From the IMG/VR virus record IMGVR_UViG_3300009507_000175, positions 1-20,197 of that record: DNA of 20,197 nt; one strand, 5' to 3'. The notes under the pieces were generated by a model. That model was not told the DNA's origin, ran no database searches, and was given only the letters and a program-made list of their open reading frames with translations. This document shows positions 9,902-20,197 of the stretch, piece by piece. Positions within the stretch are counted from its first letter, which is position 1, and each line of letters opens with the position of its first letter. Source of the DNA: a virus. A program made the translations under genes and the position numbers.

Positions 9902-10705
9902 TTAAAACCTTAAAAATTTAGGTGAGTAATATAATCCTATCCCAATAGAGGGTCCAGTACTAATCACTTGATTATTATTTAAATTAATTCCATACCCAAC
10001 GCCAAATCCAATGGCCCATCCACCTTTCTTTTGACTTTTCCTGTTTAATCTCGTGTTAATTAAGTTAATATTTTCTATATCTTTAATTTCTAGACCCGGA
10101 TACGTAGTACTTAATTTAAGCCTATCTGCACCGTCAACATTTTCTATTGCTGCCATTAAACTTAGTGTTTGTGTTAATTCAAATTTACTATCTAAAACCT
10201 TGAACTGACCAAAATCATATTTTAAAGTTGATTTTCCAAATAAACTCCTGCTGTTACCATTACCATAATCCTTAAATGATTCGTATTTAACTTCAGCAGT
10301 TGTAGAATCTATTTGAGTTACACTTGCATTTGCTAATAAGCTATCTTTAATTTCTAACTCAGCAGAAATTAAAGAGTTTACATCACTTAAATCTTCATTT
10401 AAATCTAAAGCATTTTTATACTTTTTTGTCATTTTAATAAGATTATTGTCTTTAATAGATAAATCTACTTTAAATGACCTGATCTGTGCTAATTGATCTC
10501 CGTTGTCATTTCTTAAAATAGAAATAGAATCTTGAGATGCCTTTAAATTATTTAAAGATATGTTAGCGTCTTCCCTTGCATATTTAACATCTTGTTTTAA
10601 AGAAGATATACTATCACATTGTTTTAAAAACATTAAAACGAAAAGAGCACCCAACACAAAAGTGAGGGTGTTCTTATTACTTATTACTTTATTTAAAAAA
10701 CTCAT
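9902..10705 (-). CDS. Membrane-anchored coiled-coil protein with outer-membrane-like C-terminus (spanin-like candidate)
   Basis: The 267-residue product has three parts. A hydrophobic segment at about residues 13-28 (TLTFVLGALFVLMFL) would anchor it in the inner membrane. Residues 31-125 are heptad-rich and probably form a coiled coil. The C-terminus (229-267) has alternating small and aromatic residues (GWAIGFGVGYGIN, then GPSIGIGLYYSPKFLRF) and ends in Phe, like the closing strand of outer-membrane beta proteins. A single protein linking both membranes would suit a spanin, which fuses the membranes at lysis. Many Bacteroidetes phages carry similar unassigned proteins. Cys30 follows LKQ, which is a poor lipobox. 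No holin or endolysin is visible nearby, so the role stays open. Confidence 0.7.
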   Translation of the reverse strand: MSFLNKVISNKNTLTFVLGALFVLMFLKQCDSISSLKQDVKYAREDANISLNNLKASQDSISILRNDNGDQLAQIRSFKVDLSIKDNNLIKMTKKYKNALDLNEDLSDVNSLISAELEIKDSLLANASVTQIDSTTAEVKYESFKDYGNGNSRSLFGKSTLKYDFGQFKVLDSKFELTQTLSLMAAIENVDGADRLKLSTTYPGLEIKDIENINLINTRLNRKSQKKGGWAIGFGVGYGINLNNNQVISTGPSIGIGLYYSPKFLRF

Positions 10706-10716
10706 ATTTAACTTTA

Positions 10717-12276
10717 TTAGTATATGCCTTCGTCTCCAAATTCGTCGTCGCCGGTCCCTTCAGAATCTTTTTCAAGATCTTCAACATTGTGTACAACTAT
10801 ACCATTTGCAAAGTATAAATCACATTCTTCAACATTGAACGAATAGGTTGTAAATCTTTCAGGAACTGTTACCAGTTCTATAGATGTAATATCTACCCAT
10901 ATATTGTCTTCGTTTAACAGCCAATCTGAATTAACAATATCTCTCACTTGTTTAAAGTAAATATCGCCTACCATGTCTTTTACTAGAACTGGATGCTCTT
11001 CTGTTATTTTTAATAATCCATTATTAAAGTTGTAATATTTATCAAAATCCAAGACATTGATGCCTGTAACGACAGTGCTTGTATATTCAGGTTCTAGAGT
11101 TTCTTCTCTTCTTTTCCATTCTTGCCATTCTCCGTCCAAACTAAATCCATCGAAGTTAATAGATAATAGGTCATCCCCTATAACTATATTCTCTACCGCT
11201 TTAGTTTCTCCATTGGCTAATGTAAGTAATTCTCCAGCTACGTGACATCCGCCACCGCCACCGCCACCAAAGCCGCCGCCACATAATGCAGGGCTATCGT
11301 ATGTACAGTCAAATGGTGTTTGTGAATCACCTATATACTGAGTACCAGTAAATTCGTAAATTATTCCGGATTGGCCAGGGCAATTAGTAGTTCCAGCAAT
11401 CTTGTTTGATAGAATATTAACACTTCTTAAAATTTTAGCTGTACCTCCATCACATGGCGTAGCTGATCTAAAATAAAAAGTTTGTGATGTTGCAGATGGA
11501 ACTGGTGTCGGCATCGCAGTTGGAGCTGGCCCTGAGCCACTTCCACTTCCACTAGTTGGAGATGGAGCCGGAGTTGGGGTTCTATTGCTTCCCGAATTAG
11601 CTTCGAGTACACAGTACCATGTGTCGGATGTGCCATAAGGTGCATTTACAGTACAGTCAACATTCATATTACTTACAGGTGAAAAAGTTTTAGTAAACCT
11701 ATACGTTCCACTAAATACATTAGAGTCTTGTGTTACAGTTGGACCAGATAAGTTTGTTCCACTAACACCCGTAGTACTAAAATTACTAGGTGCCGCTGGA
11801 CTAGTCTGACCATCAGCTACAATTGTATATGCTACATCAGCACCAAGTGACTGAGGTGTAAATACAAATCTATTACCAGATGTTGTATTAGTTGCGAACG
11901 TGAACGCTGGGGTTGGACCTAACGTTGGTTGTGCTGTTGGAACTGGGGTTGGTTGTGCTGTTGGAACTGGGGTTGGTTGTGCTGTTGGAACTGGCGTTGC
12001 AGTCGGAACCGAAGTTGGGACTGGCGTTGCAGTCGGATCAGGTACACCCGCACCTTCAGCTTGATTTACAGTAATAGTGTCAACCGTTGTTGAATTAGCA
12101 TGTCTAACAGTGAGTGTTGCGCTTCGCGCAGCACCGTTGTTTTGTTCTAGTGTAATTGTCCAGTCGTCAGAGTTAACAGAAACTCTTGTTATAGTAATCC
12201 AATTAGGAGTAGCATCCCATGAATAGGATGTACTTACTGGTGTAATTGAGACAGTTCTTGTATAATCGTAGCTCAT
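10717..12276 (-). CDS. Fibre-like protein with BACON-like domain and C-terminal HINT self-processing domain
   Basis: The 519-residue product is modular. Residues 5-75 look like a BACON domain (PNWITIT, TITLEQN, RSATLTV, DTITVNQAEG), a fold linked to carbohydrate or mucin binding in Bacteroidetes. A Pro/Thr linker (80-122, PTPVPTAQ repeats) leads to a beta domain with C208 and C222. A second Pro/Ser/Gly linker follows (232-262), then a cysteine-containing domain (264-332), then a Gly run (333-343). Residues 344-497 form a HINT domain: C344 first, TEEHP at 425-429 (block B), TYSFNVEECDLYFANGIVVHN at the end with H496-N497. An acidic 22-residue tail closes the protein. It is one of a pair with the collagen-like fibre gene upstream, sharing linker repeats. 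Likely a tail appendage that binds the host surface and is cut after assembly. Confidence 0.85.
   Translation of the reverse strand: MSYDYTRTVSITPVSTSYSWDATPNWITITRVSVNSDDWTITLEQNNGAARSATLTVRHANSTTVDTITVNQAEGAGVPDPTATPVPTSVPTATPVPTAQPTPVPTAQPTPVPTAQPTLGPTPAFTFATNTTSGNRFVFTPQSLGADVAYTIVADGQTSPAAPSNFSTTGVSGTNLSGPTVTQDSNVFSGTYRFTKTFSPVSNMNVDCTVNAPYGTSDTWYCVLEANSGSNRTPTPAPSPTSGSGSGSGPAPTAMPTPVPSATSQTFYFRSATPCDGGTAKILRSVNILSNKIAGTTNCPGQSGIIYEFTGTQYIGDSQTPFDCTYDSPALCGGGFGGGGGGGCHVAGELLTLANGETKAVENIVIGDDLLSINFDGFSLDGEWQEWKRREETLEPEYTSTVVTGINVLDFDKYYNFNNGLLKITEEHPVLVKDMVGDIYFKQVRDIVNSDWLLNEDNIWVDITSIELVTVPERFTTYSFNVEECDLYFANGIVVHNVEDLEKDSEGTGDDEFGDEGIY
10786..11247 (-). other. HINT (intein/hedgehog-type) domain inside the fibre-like protein
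   Basis: This encodes residues 344-497. Block A starts at Cys344 and reads CHVAGELLTLANGETKAVE, followed by IGDDLLS. Block B is KITEEHPVLV with Thr425 and His428. The terminal blocks end in VVHN, giving the His-Asn pair used for Asn cyclisation. At about 154 residues there is no room for a homing endonuclease. The residue after Asn is Val, not Cys, Ser or Thr, so full protein splicing is not expected. Cleavage at either end, as in bacterial intein-like domains, is. The residue before Cys344 is Gly. Confidence 0.85.
11927..11998 (-). repeat. 24-base tandem repeat encoding PTPVPTAQ
   Basis: Three in-frame copies of a 24-base unit start at 11927, 11951 and 11975 (plus-strand view GGTTGTGCTGTTGGAACTGG...). 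Two are identical and the third differs by one base. They encode the Pro/Thr linker between the BACON-like domain and the next domain. The same unit occurs in the neighbouring fibre gene. Confidence 0.9.
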
Positions 12277-12323: not shown

Positions 12324-13715
12324 TTAATAGTTTAAAAATCCTGTTCCAGTTCCTGAACTAGTTCCTCCACTTCCACCTGATTGAGATGGTGTTGGTTGTG
12401 CTGTTGGAATTGGACCATCACCTGTTCCTGAACCTGTTCCCGAACCTGTTCCGCTAGTCGGGACAGGTGTTGGTTGTGCTGTTGGAATTGGACCATCACC
12501 TGTTCCTGAACCTGTTCCCGAACCTGTTCCGCTAGTCGGGACAGGTGTTGGTTGTGCTGTTGGAATTGGACCTGAACCACTTCCACTTCCACTAGTTGGA
12601 ACTGGTGTTGGCTGTGCCGTTGGAACTGGCGTTGGTTGTGCTGTTGGACTTGGACCTGAACCACTTCCACTTCCACTAGTTGGAACTGGGGTTGGTTGTG
12701 CTGTTGGAACTGGGGTTGCAGTCGGATCAGGTACATTTGAATTTGGTGACCCGTCACTGTTTGCATCAATGTCTCCACCTCCAATAGAAATGGTGTCAGT
12801 TACTACTGGACTTCCATCAGCATATGCATTAATGTCTCCTCCTATAATTCCAATACTATCTGCTACTCCGCTACCACAATCTGTACATAATTCTCTCCAT
12901 TCCGGTGAACCACCATTATAATAATAAGCTTCAGCAATATCTAAATCACTATTAAATCTTATCATACCTACTTGTGGATTTACTGGTCTTTGTCCAGTTC
13001 CACCATAAGGCAATCTTACATAACCTTTAAATTCGGCATTTATATCTACATCTAATATACCACTACCTGAAGCTTCTAAACTAAGGTTGTTTGATCCAGT
13101 CGTTTTAATTGCTACACCTTCACCTTGAAAATATGCATTAGAACTAGTAGCAACCAAAGATATTTTATTGGTAGTTGCACCAAACTCTATATTATTACTA
13201 CCAAAATTATTTTTAAAAGCAAATCTTTTATAAGCTCCGCTTTCTTCACTAGTTAATACTAAACCATGAATTGAGTCATGAAACAATTTTAGATAATTTG
13301 CAAAAACACTATCAGTTGCTATTGTCAATCTTGCATTTGATGAAACATCGCCGTCATTAGAATCTTCTTCAAATGTAGAATCTCCTAGCCAAATTATAGG
13401 AAGTTGTAAATCAGTTCCTCTTTTAGGTTTTAGAATAGTAACCTCATTTTGTCCATCTGAATTAGCATCTAATTCAACTTTGTACCATGGACTATCAGTT
13501 GCTCCTGAATCTCCTTTTAGACCAGTATTACCAATCTCACCTTTTTCACCTTTTTGTCCTGTAGAACCAACTTGACCTTGATCTCCTTTTTGCCCTTTAG
13601 GACCAACAGGTCCACCTCCGTTTGCCAATATCTGGTCAAAGTTATAGTTGATTTTTTCAAACTTAATAGAGTCTGAATCACTCGGGTGTAGTATCTCTTG
13701 AATGTTAATTGCCAT
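12324..13715 (-). CDS. Collagen-like tail fibre protein with Pro/Thr and Gly/Ser repeats
   Basis: The 463-residue product opens with a short domain common at fibre N-termini (EILHPSDSDSIKFEKINYNFDQIL). Next come 13 collagen-type G-x-y triplets at 35-73 (GPKGQKGDQGQVG and so on), which should form a trimeric triple helix. Residues 75-270 are beta-rich, ending in GMIRFNSDLDIAEAYYYNGG-SPEWREL, a pattern seen near the ends of many phage fibre and adhesin proteins. From 326 to 463 the sequence is almost only PTPVPTAQ units alternating with Gly/Ser/Thr spacers, ending GTGFLNY. The C-terminal repeats vary in length through recent duplication. It starts one base after the stop of the giant gene. The likely role is host attachment. 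Confidence 0.85.
   Translation of the reverse strand: MAINIQEILHPSDSDSIKFEKINYNFDQILANGGGPVGPKGQKGDQGQVGSTGQKGEKGEIGNTGLKGDSGATDSPWYKVELDANSDGQNEVTILKPKRGTDLQLPIIWLGDSTFEEDSNDGDVSSNARLTIATDSVFANYLKLFHDSIHGLVLTSEESGAYKRFAFKNNFGSNNIEFGATTNKISLVATSSNAYFQGEGVAIKTTGSNNLSLEASGSGILDVDINAEFKGYVRLPYGGTGQRPVNPQVGMIRFNSDLDIAEAYYYNGGSPEWRELCTDCGSGVADSIGIIGGDINAYADGSPVVTDTISIGGGDIDANSDGSPNSNVPDPTATPVPTAQPTPVPTSGSGSGSGPSPTAQPTPVPTAQPTPVPTSGSGSGSGPIPTAQPTPVPTSGTGSGTGSGTGDGPIPTAQPTPVPTSGTGSGTGSGTGDGPIPTAQPTPSQSGGSGGTSSGTGTGFLNY
12391..12546 (-). repeat. 78-base perfect tandem duplication
   Basis: Two copies, 12391-12468 and 12469-12546, appear identical base for base, and a third begins at 12547 and matches for 26 bases. 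Each copy is 26 codons and keeps the frame (PTAQPTPVPTSG followed by a Gly/Ser/Thr spacer). A separate 38-base block also recurs at 12568-12605 and 12652-12689. The identity, including silent positions, points to recent slippage or recombination. Confidence 0.92.
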
Positions 13716-13716
13716 T

Positions 13717-16700
13717 TTATGACTTTATTTTTATCATAGGTTTAATGTCGTAAGAATATCCTAATCTTTTATTATATATCAATCTAAAATTCATAGGCTT
13801 TTGTTTATGAGATTTAAATCTAAAATTATTATCCGGTGTAAATCCACCAGCACGAATATCTTCATATATGTTTATTATCGATGAAGGTCTTCCTTTAAAA
13901 TCCCTGGTATACAGCGATATAGAATCTACCACAAATTTTTCAATAATATTATTATTAATATAGAAGTTTGCATCATCAACTAACGTTGTTTTATCTCCAG
14001 CTGAATCTTCAACATTCACATATTTATTTATTACATCAAACACTCCGTCATTTCTTAGCAACCTAGTGGCAGCATCAGTAATATAAAAATCTGCAACTAT
14101 TTGTTTTTCATCCTCAAACATAGTTACTTCAGTTTTATTTATACCATTCTTTAAAATAAAATCTAAGTCTTCTTGGCTGTCTACACTCTGATATGTAAAA
14201 GAAGTAATGTCATACTCATTTTTAATTTTCATCGCGGTAGATCCAAGATAAGATTTTTCTTCAGTGTTATCTAGCGTTCCCGGTATATCCTCTGATTTAC
14301 CACCAGATAGTGCCCTAGTGTAATAATTTGCATCCCACGAAGATCTAAATACATTCACATCTTTTTTAGAAATAGCAATTTCATTAATAAGTGGATATAA
14401 TGGTAATTTATCGGAAGACTCTGATAGTTTAGTGATACCGTTTGGATTTATTTCATTTACCTTGTGATAAAAATGATTTTTTATAATACCCCAACTAGAA
14501 TCATGGATGTTGTTGTCTATGATAAGTCCCACATTAAATGTAGTACCACATCTATTATATCTGTTATAATATGATTTAGCAGTTTTTAATTCATATGAAT
14601 CATTCATAGCATGCCTGTATAAAAATGACTCAAATTGAGCTTCTCTATTGTCTACTGTAGCCTGTACTCTATTAGATTTAAAATGAGTATACATATCAGT
14701 AAATGTAACAACAGGTTTAAATCCTACGGTATATGATCCACTGTGTCTTATTAAGAATGGATAATATTCTGCATCATTTGATTTAATCAAATTATAACCA
14801 ATAATACCTTTAAATAATTTAAAACTCTTTGGTTTATCATTATCTTCTTCTACAGAAAGGGTCGCATATTTTATAATTTCATTTCCATCTTCAAAATTAA
14901 TAGTAAACCTATTTGTGTTTATTTCTCCATCTTCCTCTATTGTAGTATATTTAACACTATCATCATTTAAGTTTATCATTTCTGCAACACTATTAATAGA
15001 TAGTTTTTCTAAAAGAACTTTGTGTATATTTGTTCCACCATCTTTATAGTAATATTTTATTTTACTTTGTAAATAGTTGGGTAAAAACTCTACATCTAGA
15101 ATATCAGATGGATCATTCACATTTACAGGTTTCCCTTGTACTTTAATAATATTATCACCTTCTACAGTGTAAATTGAAAACTTATAAATTGTATTTCCAG
15201 GAGTTTCAGGATATAAGTCCATTAAAACATCACCATATAATCCATTTTCTCCTAATAAAATTTGATCATCGAAATTAGGCATACTTCCGTCAATATGAGG
15301 AATACCTTCTATTGTAAATGGTAATTCCCCTGAAAAATCAGCTTGGTTCCAATTTAGCGCACCATCAAACGAAGTGTTGGCATAAATATAATCTTCACCC
15401 GCATGATCATATACGATTTTGTGATTTAATTCATATAATAGTTTTCTATTCATGTTTCCTTTCACCCAATAATCGCTAAGATTCATTGTAATAAAAAAGA
15501 TTACATACTTAAACTTCTTGTTTTGAATAACTTCAAATTCTATATCATTTGTTTCAGTGTCAGTATTTGTTTTTAATAAAATACTAAATTTATAACCATT
15601 AAATTCACTACTTTTAACAAAATCAAGTGCAGTTTTATTTGCAAATTCTTTTCTATTTTTTAATACAACTTTTAAACCTTTGAATATAGTGTTAGCAAAA
15701 GCATTTGTATCACCGCCATCTATCAATGTATATTTTTTCTTTAATTCTGTTTTAAAGAACGTATTATTAATATCATCAGGGTTTAAATAACCCTCTGTGT
15801 ATTCTCCGAATTTTTGAAATATAGATTCTAAATCTTCCTGATTTAGATTTTTTTCAAATCCTTCAGAAATCATAAATTTATCAAAATAATTATTTTTAGT
15901 ACTTTTGAATAAATCAGATGTTAATTCAAAATCTTCAATAAAGTTTACATATGAAAAACCTTGGTTTAATTCGTCGTATCTTAAATACTTTGGATTTTTA
16001 TCCATGTAAAACCATTCATGTGTCATGTCATTTTTATTACGACCAATTGCACTTAAATCAGGGGAGAAATTAGTTCTACCAAACGCTTCGTTAGTATTTA
16101 AGTAGTATGGTTGTTCTTTAACATTTAATGAATCTTTTAGAACCCACTTGTTAATATTAGGAACAACTCTAGATTTAGTAGCAAATTCTTTTAATTCGTT
16201 TTCTTTTAATCTATCAAATTCACTTGTAATATTTTCAGATAATTCTTCGTCGATAGTTTCTTCAGATAATATTCCGGATAAATTAGAAAAATAATCAACA
16301 GGTTCTAGTGCATAATTATCATCAAATATGTCACTGGCAGCTAATATTGAATTAAATTCAGATGTGATTGGATCTATATTTAATATAGCGCTTTCATATG
16401 GTTCGTAATTTATATTGCTTCTTGTTTCTAAAGAAAGTTCCTTTAAATTAGAATTTGAAGTGTCATAAAAATCAAAGTCCATGTCATATAGATCATACAC
16501 CGAGAACAAACCAACATGTACTATATTGTTATTAAAGACCCTTGCTTCTCCGTCATTAATATCTGAATCTAAAGACAATATTATTTTAGATCTAGTAGAG
16601 TTAACAGAATCAATATCTTCGACAATATCTAAAACTTTGTTGTAAATACCTTTATAATTAGTTTCTAAATAATCACCAACTGATATTTCACTTAAAGTTG

Positions 16701-19700
16701 TATTATCAACAAACACTGATCTGTTACGAGTGTTACCTCCATTTAAATAATGAGCTCTCCAATTTTCTTTTATAGAATTGGCACCTTTTTTGAGGTTTAA
16801 TATATTATTTAAATCTTCATTTTCTACTTTAATAAAATCAGTAACATTCTCTTTGTTTACCAATACAACATGTTGTTTTAGTCTATATCCAGGTACATTT
16901 GTTTTTACAAAAACATCTGACCCTACATTATATGACTCTAATTCACCTTCATCGTTTTGTATCGCAGACGCCAACGCGGATGCTATATCTCCAGTAGTTC
17001 CTTGATTAGAAAATTGTTGTCCTTTATAAGTTCCTTTTGGTAGTGTATAATTAGAAACATATGTTCTATCTTGTAAATTAACATTAGATTGGAGTTGATC
17101 AACTCTAACAATAGAACTGATTGCACCTACAACTCTCATATTAAGATTGCCTAGATTTGTTTTAATTTCAGTTATATTTACAGACTTAGTATTATAATCA
17201 AAAGTAATGTTTAAGTTTGCATCTTTTGGTGCAGCTATAATGTTAGCTACGGTAGTTTCAAAATCAACACCTAATTCTATATCATTATCGAACAAATCAG
17301 ATTCGATACCATCTTCTTCTATTTTAATATTAATTAATTCTCCAGGTGCGTGTTTAATAAACGTAAACTTATATGATTCTTCTCTTGATTCTAATACAGC
17401 TATTTTATCAGCACTATCAGGTGCACCTGTTATTGTCATTTTAACAAAATCAAAACCTTGATCTTCATTTCTAGTTAAATTAACAGATCTACCAACATGA
17501 GAAATACCTATGGTTTTTGATATAACTTCATTGTTGCCGTCTACTTTAACTTCTAATTTTGAAGGATTGTAAAAACCAGAGTTTGATATCTTATAAAAAA
17601 TATCATTTATCTTTACATAACCTAAAGTCGGTGATGTAGACATTTGTTTATAACTAGGAATTGCCGTAATTGAATTTGTACTATCAATTAATGAATCAAT
17701 TTTACCAAAAGTAATTACATTGTTACTAACAGAATTAATTTCACCTACACCAGAATCCACAGTATCAACATATAATCCAAAATATCTACTAACACTATAA
17801 TCAGACCCTTCGTTATCGTCAAATAAGAATTCCAAATTCAATATATTAGCACATAACATGTCATTTCTTTTAAAACCATCGGTTATAAAATCATTGGCCT
17901 CAATAAGGGGTTTGTCAGTTTCTACAAAATCTTTGTAAATGTATTCACCCTTGCTAGTTAATTCACCTGATTTTAAATCTATACCATTATAATTAGTATT
18001 TTCATTTTTGTTAAACGAAACAGTTAACGGTGCTTTAGGGAAAGTTTCTTGTTGAACATGAGATCTAATATATTTTCCTAAATCTGAATCTTTTGATAAA
18101 TCAAATGATTTAATTATCTCAGCATTTTTTAACATGCTGGAAATTCTATCAGCGTTGCTACTATTCGTATGAGTAGAATCCAATAAACTAGGATCTTTTA
18201 CTTTAAATATTACAAAATTATTTGGCATATTATTATCTGCCCATATAGGTGCAAACATTTTATAACTCTCATCATAATTTTTAGAATAATTATAAGTAGT
18301 TCCATATTGATATTCCTCTTCTACTTGTTTATTATAAGAATCATGTACCGTTAAATCAGAATTAACTCTTTTTGTTAAGTATATTAAATCAGATGGAGTT
18401 CCAGTAGCTCTAAAAAAAGAAGATACGTCTTTGGCATAATTTCCATTTGGATTAATAGGATTTTTTTTATATTTTATTCCCGCTAATTTTTCACTGGCGC
18501 TTATACTCTCCAAATATACCGTACCACTAGAATCTGTAACTATTTTTATATTTCCAGATAATTTAGGATTAGTTCTTAATAAAGGCTTGGCGACATTATC
18601 TAGTTTATAATTAGTTTCCGTGTTAAAATTTGGACCAGCTTTAACAGAATCATAACCACTAACGAATGGAAACGTATATGTTTTATTAATTTCAATTTCA
18701 CTACCAAGAACGCATGGTGCACCATTATTTTCATAAATGTTAATAGTCTCTTCGCTACTAAAACCTAGTTCAATTCCACTAGAAACAACGGGCCTTATTT
18801 TAGAATCATTAAAATTATTTTTTAGTAATAACACGGCATCATCTATGTCTTCTGCAATAATTCTAGAAACATATGATAAACATTCTCCAGTGTTGTTAGA
18901 CACAACTACATTTCCTATCGTTAAATCATCTATAAAATCTTTTATGTGACTGCCCGTGTCTCCTGATGTATTTGTATGTAGACCATCTATTACATAGACT
19001 GGCCAAAATATATCTTCAGTTGTATAACCACCATCTGGCCCTTCGGGTCCTTCGATTTCAGGAGTATAAGAATAGAATGCATAAAAGTTATTATTAGCAG
19101 AGTCACCTTCAATAAGATCTGAAATATTAATGTCAGGCCTATTATTATATGTTGAACAAGAACCCAGTTCAAAAATATTATTTCCAACCGCTAACTTATT
19201 ATTGACATCATAACCATACCAATTTAAATTTTTACCATCACCTAAATTATCCCATGCTAAATATTCATCGCTGTTTCCTACTGCGAATATATTTGATTCA
19301 AATAAATCCAATGGATCCTGTCCTTGTGCACCTAAACTAGATTTGTATATTGCAATATTTGATTTTCCTAATTCTAACAAGGTAGTAATAGCAGGCGCAC
19401 CCACATCTCTACTAAACCATAAAACAACGTCTTCGAGTTCACCAGAATATTGTCCTGTACAAAATTCATTTAAATTTGGATCATCAAAGTTTGGTAAATA
19501 TTGAACAATAATTTGTTTTATTTCTTGTGCAACTTCTTTTTCACACTCAAACTCAAATCCAGCTGGTTCATTGTTGTTTTCTCCCCATGTGTTATTAGAT
19601 GATCTTTTATAAAATACATCTAAAGCAATATCGGTATCTCCATAAACTCCGCTTTCTATTGAGCTCTGTACTACATTAGTGATAGTGAATAAATCTGAGT

Positions 19701-20197
19701 CATACTCGTTAGAGAATATTTGTATAGAACCATTTACCAATTCAAGTAAAGTTTTTGGACCATTATCACCGTTATACCAAAGATCTGTAATCTGTATATC
19801 ATCGTCACAATATGCATTTTCACTACTTGCATACCTAACGGCCGTGGATATAGAACTAGCATTACTTTCACAATCTTTAATACTAGTGATCACTCCGTTA
19901 GCATTGATACCTAATACTCTAGTTTTACTAGAATCAGAAACCTTTATGTATATTGCAGTATTACTTGGCCTTGTAACCTTATTATTTAAATCTTGATCAT
20001 AATAAACTGTGTCACCTATTGATAATTCACTAGTATTGTTTGCATATGTTGTTCCACCATAAACATTTGTAGTTGCAGGTGCGATACACATAGCATCTGG
20101 ATCACTACCAAACGATGATGCATCCATTTCGAAATACGGAACAGCCTCAATGGCAAAGTTAATAGTTAGTGGAGCTGATTGTTCTTCTTTACTATCC
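13717..20197 (-). CDS. Giant virion structural protein (5' end outside window)
   Basis: The frame is open from the right edge to the TAA at 13717-13719, at least 2159 codons. The Met at 20127 is probably internal, because the 23 codons before it stay open and read as normal protein (NFAIEAVPYFEM). The N-terminal third is Cys-containing and beta-rich, with a segment YYDQDLNNKVTRPSNTAIYI near nt 19930-20020 that resembles repeats in flavophage fibre proteins. Around nt 18200-18580 are NPKLSGNIKIVTDSSGTVYL, EYQYGTTYNYSKNYDESYKM and FAPIWADNNMPNNFVIFKV. Around nt 16060-16160 are NKWVLKDSLNV and AFGRTNFSPDLS. I associate these motifs with very large virion proteins of marine and gut Bacteroidetes phages, from memory. 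It heads the structural run and is followed one base later by the collagen-like fibre, so a tail or baseplate scaffold is likely. Confidence 0.8.
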   Translation of the reverse strand, partial: DSKEEQSAPLTINFAIEAVPYFEMDASSFGSDPDAMCIAPATTNVYGGTTYANNTSELSIGDTVYYDQDLNNKVTRPSNTAIYIKVSDSSKTRVLGINANGVITSIKDCESNASSISTAVRYASSENAYCDDDIQITDLWYNGDNGPKTLLELVNGSIQIFSNEYDSDLFTITNVVQSSIESGVYGDTDIALDVFYKRSSNNTWGENNNEPAGFEFECEKEVAQEIKQIIVQYLPNFDDPNLNEFCTGQYSGELEDVVLWFSRDVGAPAITTLLELGKSNIAIYKSSLGAQGQDPLDLFESNIFAVGNSDEYLAWDNLGDGKNLNWYGYDVNNKLAVGNNIFELGSCSTYNNRPDINISDLIEGDSANNNFYAFYSYTPEIEGPEGPDGGYTTEDIFWPVYVIDGLHTNTSGDTGSHIKDFIDDLTIGNVVVSNNTGECLSYVSRIIAEDIDDAVLLLKNNFNDSKIRPVVSSGIELGFSSEETINIYENNGAPCVLGSEIEINKTYTFPFVSGYDSVKAGPNFNTETNYKLDNVAKPLLRTNPKLSGNIKIVTDSSGTVYLESISASEKLAGIKYKKNPINPNGNYAKDVSSFFRATGTPSDLIYLTKRVNSDLTVHDSYNKQVEEEYQYGTTYNYSKNYDESYKMFAPIWADNNMPNNFVIFKVKDPSLLDSTHTNSSNADRISSMLKNAEIIKSFDLSKDSDLGKYIRSHVQQETFPKAPLTVSFNKNENTNYNGIDLKSGELTSKGEYIYKDFVETDKPLIEANDFITDGFKRNDMLCANILNLEFLFDDNEGSDYSVSRYFGLYVDTVDSGVGEINSVSNNVITFGKIDSLIDSTNSITAIPSYKQMSTSPTLGYVKINDIFYKISNSGFYNPSKLEVKVDGNNEVISKTIGISHVGRSVNLTRNEDQGFDFVKMTITGAPDSADKIAVLESREESYKFTFIKHAPGELINIKIEEDGIESDLFDNDIELGVDFETTVANIIAAPKDANLNITFDYNTKSVNITEIKTNLGNLNMRVVGAISSIVRVDQLQSNVNLQDRTYVSNYTLPKGTYKGQQFSNQGTTGDIASALASAIQNDEGELESYNVGSDVFVKTNVPGYRLKQHVVLVNKENVTDFIKVENEDLNNILNLKKGANSIKENWRAHYLNGGNTRNRSVFVDNTTLSEISVGDYLETNYKGIYNKVLDIVEDIDSVNSTRSKIILSLDSDINDGEARVFNNNIVHVGLFSVYDLYDMDFDFYDTSNSNLKELSLETRSNINYEPYESAILNIDPITSEFNSILAASDIFDDNYALEPVDYFSNLSGILSEETIDEELSENITSEFDRLKENELKEFATKSRVVPNINKWVLKDSLNVKEQPYYLNTNEAFGRTNFSPDLSAIGRNKNDMTHEWFYMDKNPKYLRYDELNQGFSYVNFIEDFELTSDLFKSTKNNYFDKFMISEGFEKNLNQEDLESIFQKFGEYTEGYLNPDDINNTFFKTELKKKYTLIDGGDTNAFANTIFKGLKVVLKNRKEFANKTALDFVKSSEFNGYKFSILLKTNTDTETNDIEFEVIQNKKFKYVIFFITMNLSDYWVKGNMNRKLLYELNHKIVYDHAGEDYIYANTSFDGALNWNQADFSGELPFTIEGIPHIDGSMPNFDDQILLGENGLYGDVLMDLYPETPGNTIYKFSIYTVEGDNIIKVQGKPVNVNDPSDILDVEFLPNYLQSKIKYYYKDGGTNIHKVLLEKLSINSVAEMINLNDDSVKYTTIEEDGEINTNRFTINFEDGNEIIKYATLSVEEDNDKPKSFKLFKGIIGYNLIKSNDAEYYPFLIRHSGSYTVGFKPVVTFTDMYTHFKSNRVQATVDNREAQFESFLYRHAMNDSYELKTAKSYYNRYNRCGTTFNVGLIIDNNIHDSSWGIIKNHFYHKVNEINPNGITKLSESSDKLPLYPLINEIAISKKDVNVFRSSWDANYYTRALSGGKSEDIPGTLDNTEEKSYLGSTAMKIKNEYDITSFTYQSVDSQEDLDFILKNGINKTEVTMFEDEKQIVADFYITDAATRLLRNDGVFDVINKYVNVEDSAGDKTTLVDDANFYINNNIIEKFVVDSISLYTRDFKGRPSSIINIYEDIRAGGFTPDNNFRFKSHKQKPMNFRLIYNKRLGYSYDIKPMIKIKS
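13769..13781 (-). promoter_or_regulatory. Promoter-like element TGATATATAATAA inside the giant gene's 3' end
   Basis: This differs from AGATATATAATAA only at its first base. It lies 53 bases before the ATG of the collagen-like gene, inside the coding sequence of the giant protein (around its residues YNKRLGYS). The distance is suitable for a promoter serving the fibre genes. Being within coding DNA, it could also be chance. Confidence 0.3.

Follow-up and report, generated by a model that had tools for sequence, protein, structure and literature searches.

The natural role of bacterial intein-like (BIL) domains is an open question. Passages of PMC4031507 describe type A BILs as having a C-terminal His-Asn, lacking a nucleophile at +1 and mostly cleaving, and cleavage products are named as the usual outcome of BIL domains in parts of both PMC7664689 and PMC4031507. 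The same portion of PMC4031507 states that type A BILs can ligate when the freed amine attacks the N-terminal thioester, while a contrary statement, that they are unable to ligate, stands in a section of PMC7765530. In passages of PMC8616854, ligation by BIL2 of Tetrahymena is described as isopeptide formation with a lysine, and other proteins can receive its ubiquitin-like domain. Here, a HINT domain (hereafter Hint) is described at the C-terminus of a 519-amino-acid fibre-like protein from a viral stretch of 20,197 bases, the entire IMG/VR record IMGVR_UViG_3300009507_000175 (the window). The domain has a predicted HINT fold, the catalytic residues are in place and it is under purifying selection; a short acidic tail with a lysine follows it, and a lysine occurs in the C-terminal flank of every intact homologue counted. 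From this pattern, we infer that the Hint is active and that the lysine is its acyl acceptor.

As a single sequence, the Hint scored 17.1 bits against Pfam Intein_splicing (cut-off 35.8) and 15.2 bits against TIGR01443 (cut-off 15.6), but a six-sequence profile found the BIL domain 2lwy as its best PDB sequence match (E 2.4e-12). Among 39 homologous domains, 24 matched PT-HINT and 19 matched Intein_splicing at E <= 0.01. The 39 alignment rows are non-redundant phage domains chosen for a Cys start, comprising the window, two domains of phage NCTB and 36 of the 59 loci of the first scan; near-duplicates were excluded, as were two loci truncated at contig ends (L016 and L062) and two lacking the Cys (L051 and L066). 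Invariant in this alignment are Cys1 (by selection), an Asn before block B, the T and H of TxxH, the block-F Asp and the His-Asn. The block-F position, Asp486 in the window, is usually His in inteins, a comparison that also draws on the alignments with 2lwy and 6tmm. An AlphaFold model of the Hint from 37 sequences (pLDDT 88.4, pTM 0.82) matched Tetrahymena BIL2 best (Z 20.8, 1.7 Å over 140 residues), with Z 19.2 for the Clostridium BIL 2lwy (1.5 Å, 134 residues), about 17-18 for DnaB mini-inteins (Ssp DnaB 1mi8, 17.9) and 17.1 for Hedgehog (1at0). The 50 structural matches shown were all BIL, intein or Hedgehog chains (Z 13.8-20.8; a Foldseek listing was also made), and the alignments run from model residue 8 (Cys344), or a little upstream of it, to residue 161 (Asn497) or slightly beyond. 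An endonuclease within the Hint is excluded because 154 residues are too few. The ratio dN/dS was 0.09-0.18 for the Hint in the seven pairs computed, 0.23-0.63 for the whole N-extein in the same pairs and 0.10-0.29 for its first 80 residues alone (six pairs with a value). Judged by its profiles and its model, the domain is a HINT domain and not a chance match.

With the HINT superfamily the domain shares the horseshoe beta fold, as modelled, together with Cys at position 1 and the TxxH of block B. Like A-type BILs, it ends in His-Asn (H496-N497), has V498 at +1 in place of a Cys, Ser or Thr nucleophile and sits on a variable host protein, the part before the Hint being 202-390 amino acids long and varied in content in eight syntenic proteins. 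On this profile- and model-based evidence it is A-type-BIL-like. A class 1 intein was rejected, as +1 is Val498, there is no C-extein continuation and no conserved host protein is interrupted; a B-type BIL was rejected, as His-Asn is present and block G of the B-type differs from that of inteins; a Hedgehog Hog domain was rejected, as the 22 residues after the Hint are too few for a sterol-recognition region. It resembles the BUBL type in having a lysine on the C side (K503), but no ubiquitin-like Pfam match was found up to E 0.1, and the glycine run is preceded by a Cys-containing stretch and not by RGG. A preliminary description of this DNA, made from the sequence, had placed Cys344-Asn497 at codons 11247..10786, with GGGFGGGGGGG before Cys344, a TxxHP block (TEEHP) inside the domain and His496-Asn497 followed by Val498, all of which is exact. 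Its proposal of a complete HINT domain on a fibre-like protein agrees with the profile and structure predictions obtained here, and with the catalytic positions in place the domain is most likely self-processing.

Viral contigs were scanned repeatedly, which yielded 59 and 76 loci and later 9, 6 and at least 80 more, in overlapping sets. The first set held 151 Hint open reading frames (ORFs), reduced to 83 unique ones by dropping repeats and five without His-Asn. Eleven of the 83 were set aside, namely four cut at the 5' end (L062, L067, L098 and L120), three without Cys1 (L003, L007 and L049), three unaligned at Cys1 (L081, L093 and L094) and the helicase intein L004, which left 72 intact members with Cys aligned at position 1, the window's own locus included. 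The stretch after Asn is 1-22 residues long in all 72 and contains Lys in all 72, the first Lys lying at +1 to +10; +1 itself is Thr in 17 and Ser in one. The tails are otherwise dissimilar (K alone, VHGK, TITGK, KGSNDNPFD, TDIVAKAEKT, IPGGGVVVKK and VEDLEKDSEG..., among others), and within the window's clade the first Lys shifts between +2 and +10 yet is kept. As a control, C-termini of equal length were taken from 609 other ORFs (181 clusters) of these loci. Every cluster had the Lys, 41 of 41 at 70% identity (22.3 expected, P 2e-12), 24 of 24 at 50% (11.5 expected, P 5e-9) and 14 of 14 at 40% (6.3 expected, P 4e-6), P values that are too small since the homologues are related; without the catalytic filter, Lys was present in 47 of 49 cluster representatives (25.4 expected). 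No other residue is so enriched in the tails, Val being next (P 0.0015), while Arg is under expectation (8 versus 16.6 in the 49 representatives), and low Arg with high Lys points to the amine rather than to charge. The ten residues before Cys1 contain Lys in one of the 72 and Arg in 16. An origin of the Lys in composition or in a usual C-terminal Lys bias was rejected by the 609-ORF control.

The lysine prediction was recorded in advance of three further scans, whose query list differed slightly from the recorded one. These gave a second set of 102 Hint ORFs, of which 29 were dropped (an open 3' end, a match stopping before the end of the domain, or a domain counted earlier). The remaining 73 yielded 63 unique ORFs; removal of the 5'-truncated L187 and L188 and of L192, which lacks His-Asn, left 60 members with Cys1 and His-Asn. 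Lys was found at +1 to +10 in 60 of 60, hence in 132 of 132 intact unique homologues of both sets together. Clusters composed of new members alone had it in 23 of 23 cases at 70% identity (11.0 expected, P 3e-8) and in eight of eight at 50% (4.0 expected, P 0.003). Among eight broken Hints, a hand-made list in which L081 counts as broken solely for its shifted Cys, Lys within +10 was present in one (Fisher 4e-11, uncorrected for kinship). Long C-exteins, of 45-253 amino acids, are found in 49 of the 60 new members; 48 of these C-exteins begin with Lys and one with IK. Phage proteins of this kind, whose Hint is internal, lie in L204-L279 (e.g., L237 and L218). Three long C-exteins were scanned for domains: that of L237 has a Laminin_G_3 lectin-like domain (61.8 bits, cut-off 27.6), that of L218 a sub-threshold Ig/fn3-like match, and the third, of 45 amino acids, had zero domain matches.

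The preferred reading, held tentatively and a little short of an even chance, is that of a self-processing A-type-BIL-like Hint that forms a thioester at Gly343, is released at Asn and transfers the acyl group to the tail lysine. From the residues present, Cys344 would attack the Gly343-Cys344 bond in an N-S acyl shift to give a glycyl thioester; Asn497 would then cyclise and free the 22-residue tail from the Hint, and the Gly343 acyl group would pass to the epsilon-amine of Lys503, forming an isopeptide as in Tetrahymena BIL2. The 154-residue Hint would be released, and the mature fibre would end in a glycine run branched to the acidic tail; in members with long C-exteins, the same step would tie the C-extein domain to the fibre. 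A tethered acyl acceptor fits better than a fixed catalytic residue because the Lys is obligatory yet may lie anywhere from +1 to +10. The preliminary description had proposed cleavage or transfer and had left aside the 22 residues after Asn497 and with them the lysine common to intact homologues. The route favoured here matches its suggestion that the poly-Gly end could be joined to an amine, but its judgement from Val498 that splicing is unlikely was too strong, because, in the passages cited at the outset (PMC4031507, PMC8616854), A-type BILs can ligate although they lack a nucleophile at +1 and the product of BIL2 is an isopeptide with lysine.

Besides the kinship of the homologues, several points weigh against this transfer to lysine. 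We know of no use for a Lys branch on a peptide of 1-22 amino acids, and a role of the Lys in catalysis or folding is an alternative. In NCTB gene 135, the stand-alone Hint without Cys1 retains a Lys (tail KVD), and the first protein of L081, whose Cys is two residues off, has His-Asn and no Lys. At 40% identity a single cluster consists of new members alone (1/1, P 0.48), so that they add little at the deepest level. Bacterial CthBIL4-like domains served as a control, with 20 of 22 loci used (L297 and L300, with shorter matches, were left out). Of their 20 unique flanks, 16 have Lys at +1 to +10, where 10.9 would be expected; +1 is Ala in 18 of the 20 and never Lys. Judging from these flanks, BILs in general may share a milder preference for lysine, and part of the signal would then not be phage-specific.

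Other outcomes of the same chemistry have to be weighed. In the first, which is unlikely, hydrolysis of the thioester (N-cleavage) would trim the fibre to a poly-Gly end, the Hint would be discarded with or without its tail, and the Lys would assist or be incidental. Cleavage is the usual product of BIL domains in the passages cited at the outset (PMC7664689, PMC4031507), and a poly-Gly end is normal at such loci, since sister collagen-like fibres without a Hint, encoded in Hint-bearing loci, end in a GGG stretch in nine of 11 unique cases (e.g., ACGGGGGGS). Trimming leaves unexplained, however, a Lys in 132 of 132 intact homologues, that is, a constraint on a discarded tail, and the C-exteins of 45-253 amino acids in 49 members, of which, among three scanned, one has Laminin_G_3 and one a weak Ig/fn3-like match, would be lost by cleavage alone. 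Quite unlikely is splicing through the alpha-amine, in which Asn cyclisation would free Val498 for attack on the Gly343 thioester, giving a Gly-Val junction. This mechanism is proposed for type A BILs in the relevant part of PMC4031507 and the required residues are present; any residue would do at that place, however, so no lysine rule would be expected, whereas Lys is present in all intact homologues counted and Arg is under expectation.

Ligation between molecules, with the glycyl thioester passed to a Lys of another fibre chain, another virion protein or a host surface amine so as to cross-link the appendage, is improbable. BIL2 can pass its ubiquitin-like domain to different substrates, as a section of PMC8616854 reports, Hint-ended genes stand in adjacent pairs in L075, L076, L077 and L081, and the tail Lys of a neighbouring chain could be the acceptor, but no partner was seen and the short tails' own Lys makes an intramolecular acceptor sufficient. 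That the Hint is kept as an inactive folding or assembly aid is very improbable: chemistry-less Hints do exist on such proteins (L051 and L066, with no Cys near the start and His-Asp for His-Asn), but none of the 39 divergent domains departs from TxxH, Asp and His-Asn, and seven of the eight hand-listed degenerate forms lack Lys within +10.

Judging by sequence matches, relatives of the Hint occur on many phage appendage-type proteins. Annotated-phage matches lie mainly in Erwinia and Dickeya jumbo phages and in phage NCTB, and also in two Vibrio phages and one uncultured phage. The Erwinia and Dickeya proteins are annotated as 'virion structural protein', 'putative tail protein', 'putative tail fiber protein' and in many cases 'hypothetical protein', and the NCTB homologues as 'intein domain' proteins. 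Jumbo myovirus records with homologues include NC_061440, NC_047880 and LT598654. NCTB, Y3, AD1 and Yoloswag are grouped in the 'hairy Myoviridae' phylogeny in a part of PMC6143709. When the phage profile was run against genome contigs, 0 of 37 stretches were confirmed.

A synteny scan with the conserved downstream 687-amino-acid protein as query, from which 80 of 218 loci were kept, found a Hint in the flank of 31 loci and none in 49, five of which (L123, L130, L143, L152 and L170) have under 2.5 kb of upstream sequence. The BACON fibre occurs without a Hint (e.g., L135, L139 and L151), and the Hint is carried by a homologue of the collagen-like fibre in L131, L132, L147 and L160. The Hint thus behaves as a movable C-terminal module, because it is present or absent and has different fibre carriers in one gene order. 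The preliminary description had suggested that BACON-like domain, linkers, glycine run and HINT may form a distinct maturation or cross-linking system; as a defined unit this combination finds no support, since GGG ends and BACON fibres occur without a Hint, the Hint is also found on the collagen-like fibre and the BACON match itself is under its cut-off. Because GGG also ends the Hint-less sister fibres, the Hint seems to be joined to a glycine run that is simply a usual terminus of such fibres. Gly occupies -1 in 48 of the 72 unique homologues in the first set but in six of the 60 in the second, where Leu or Phe is found in 48; the poly-Gly as part of the Hint system was rejected from these -1 residues and the GGG ends of nine of 11 sisters. 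For 17 of 18 unique post-Hint tails, the match to 53 unique Hint-free fibre ends did not exceed that of shuffled tails; the Gly-rich tail of L125 was the exception (P 0.005). The acid fraction is 0.28 in the tails versus 0.10 in Hint-free fibre ends. The tail as an ordinary fibre end interrupted by the Hint was rejected on these two comparisons, and because the tails are unlike Hint-free fibre ends the Hint is not an intein inserted into a continuing protein.

Several unusual arrangements were observed among the homologues. L082-L090, L093 and L095-L097 (e.g., L093:2782-4974) encode phage proteins of ~590-730 amino acids with two or three tandem C-terminal Hints, the first without Cys1, and in L093 a single Lys joins the second and third copies (HN-K-C). 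In L075, L076, L077 and L081, each of the two adjacent genes has its own terminal Hint. Stand-alone Cys1-less Hints directly follow a Hint-ended gene in L007:5698-6159 (NCTB gene 135) and in L092 (a 155-amino-acid ORF), and are possibly decayed or helper Hints. L051 and L066 encode PFGFT-repeat proteins, on which the Hint without Cys at its start has His-Asp replacing His-Asn. L004:3546-6677 of Vibrio phage PS65A.1 is helicase-like with apparently two intein-like insertions, a distant match to the window's Hint and a matter separate from the appendage Hints.

The coordinates in the window are collected in Table 1. Besides an appendage region, the window encodes a DNA helicase, a primase, a single-strand binding protein and a RuvC-like resolvase by PHROG, a set of replication genes that we read as T4-like. 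The fibre gene has the same position and gene order in L008-L025, a set that includes loci truncated at contig ends. The fibre-like protein consists, in order, of the BACON-like domain, Pro/Thr and Gly/Ser linkers, more beta-rich sequence (poor model), the glycine run, the Hint and the acidic tail. Its full-length model has a pLDDT of 49 and served for strand content only; within this otherwise poor model the BACON-like region forms beta strands at pLDDT ~75. Upstream of the fibres, a 2136-amino-acid protein (13717-20127) matches PHROG 31887 alone (unknown function, E 9e-51), with zero Pfam matches up to E 0.1, and is probably a large baseplate or fibre component.

Table 1. Position of the Hint-bearing protein, its parts and its neighbours in the window.
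Feature	Coordinates	Strand	Evidence
Fibre-like protein, 519 aa, with C-terminal HINT domain	10717..12276	-	ORF; adjoins collagen-like fibre gene
BACON-like domain, residues 20-73	12058..12219	-	Pfam PF13004, 23.3 bits, under cut-off 25
Glycine run GGGFGGGGGGG, residues 333-343, last residue at Hint -1	11248..11280	-	Sequence
HINT domain (predicted A-type-BIL-like), Cys344-Asn497, 154 aa, no endonuclease insert	10786..11247	-	Profiles, alignment, model
Cys344, intein position 1, putative thioester nucleophile	11245..11247	-	39/39 aligned domains, chosen for Cys start
T425-E-E-H428, block B TxxH	10993..11004	-	T and H invariant in 39/39
Asp486, block-F position	10819..10821	-	D invariant in 39/39
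His496-Asn497, block G	10786..10791	-	Invariant in 39/39
Acidic C-tail, 22 residues, VEDLEKDSEGTGDDEFGDEGIY	10720..10785	-	Sequence; model pLDDT low, 54-61
Lys503 (+6), sole Lys of the tail, proposed acyl acceptor	10768..10770	-	Position checked
Collagen-like fibre protein, 463 aa, neighbour	12324..13715	-	PHROG tail fibre matches, best E 3.6e-7
Conserved 267-aa protein, downstream	9902..10705	-	PHROG Rz-like spanin, E 0.0048 (weak); syntenic

In the portions of the open-licence PMC literature covered, no paper was recognised as describing this phage Hint family or its lysine, and within that literature three things appear to be new: the appendage family, the lysine rule and the changing position of the Hint within a single gene order. 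More cautiously still, we suggest that a widespread HINT domain of phage appendages may make a lysine isopeptide without ATP or enzymes, with a Lys in the ten residues after the Hint as its signature, as a viral counterpart of the ciliate ubiquitin-dispensing BIL that would branch, cap or cross-link virion fibres. The signature of Cys1, His-Asn and a Lys within ten residues makes a BIL role testable in a large phage family, and it helps annotators to find Hint-ended proteins that fall under Pfam cut-offs. If the Lys is the acceptor, phages would form isopeptide bonds at appendage protein ends without ATP, with a bearing on virion stability and on the attachment of receptor-binding domains, and the domain would be a useful ligation tool working with poly-Gly ends.

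Among known systems, S74 autopeptidase/chaperone domains of phage tail fibres and spikes have a fold that differs from HINT. According to passages of PMC7824862, they are likewise C-terminal, self-removing appendage domains, but work as a Ser-Lys autopeptidase. The Hedgehog Hog domain (1at0) shares the fold, the C-terminal place and an expected N-terminal thioester step, whereas the phage Hint has no room for a sterol-recognition region. Hog domains are also not known to have the His-Asn that is present in the phage Hint. Class 1 inteins such as Ssp DnaB (1mi8) share the fold, Cys1, TxxH and His-Asn, and differ in that the window's Hint has Val at +1, a C-extein of 22 amino acids and no interrupted conserved host protein. 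The Clostridium thermocellum BIL (2lwy) has the same HINT fold, Cys1, TxxH and His-Asn, with no Cys, Ser or Thr at +1 and no endonuclease; at 25% identity to it, the domain described here lies on a phage appendage-type protein, has 22 residues after Asn, has Asp for the block-F His and follows the lysine rule in its C-flank, where 16 of 20 bacterial relatives have a Lys. In BIL2 of Tetrahymena BUBL1 (6y75, 6tmm), as in the window, the N-extein ends in Gly and a C-side Lys is the proposed acceptor; BIL2 lies between ciliate ubiquitin-like domains, as described in parts of PMC8616854 and PMC9200820, while here the putative isopeptide would join a phage fibre to its own short tail.

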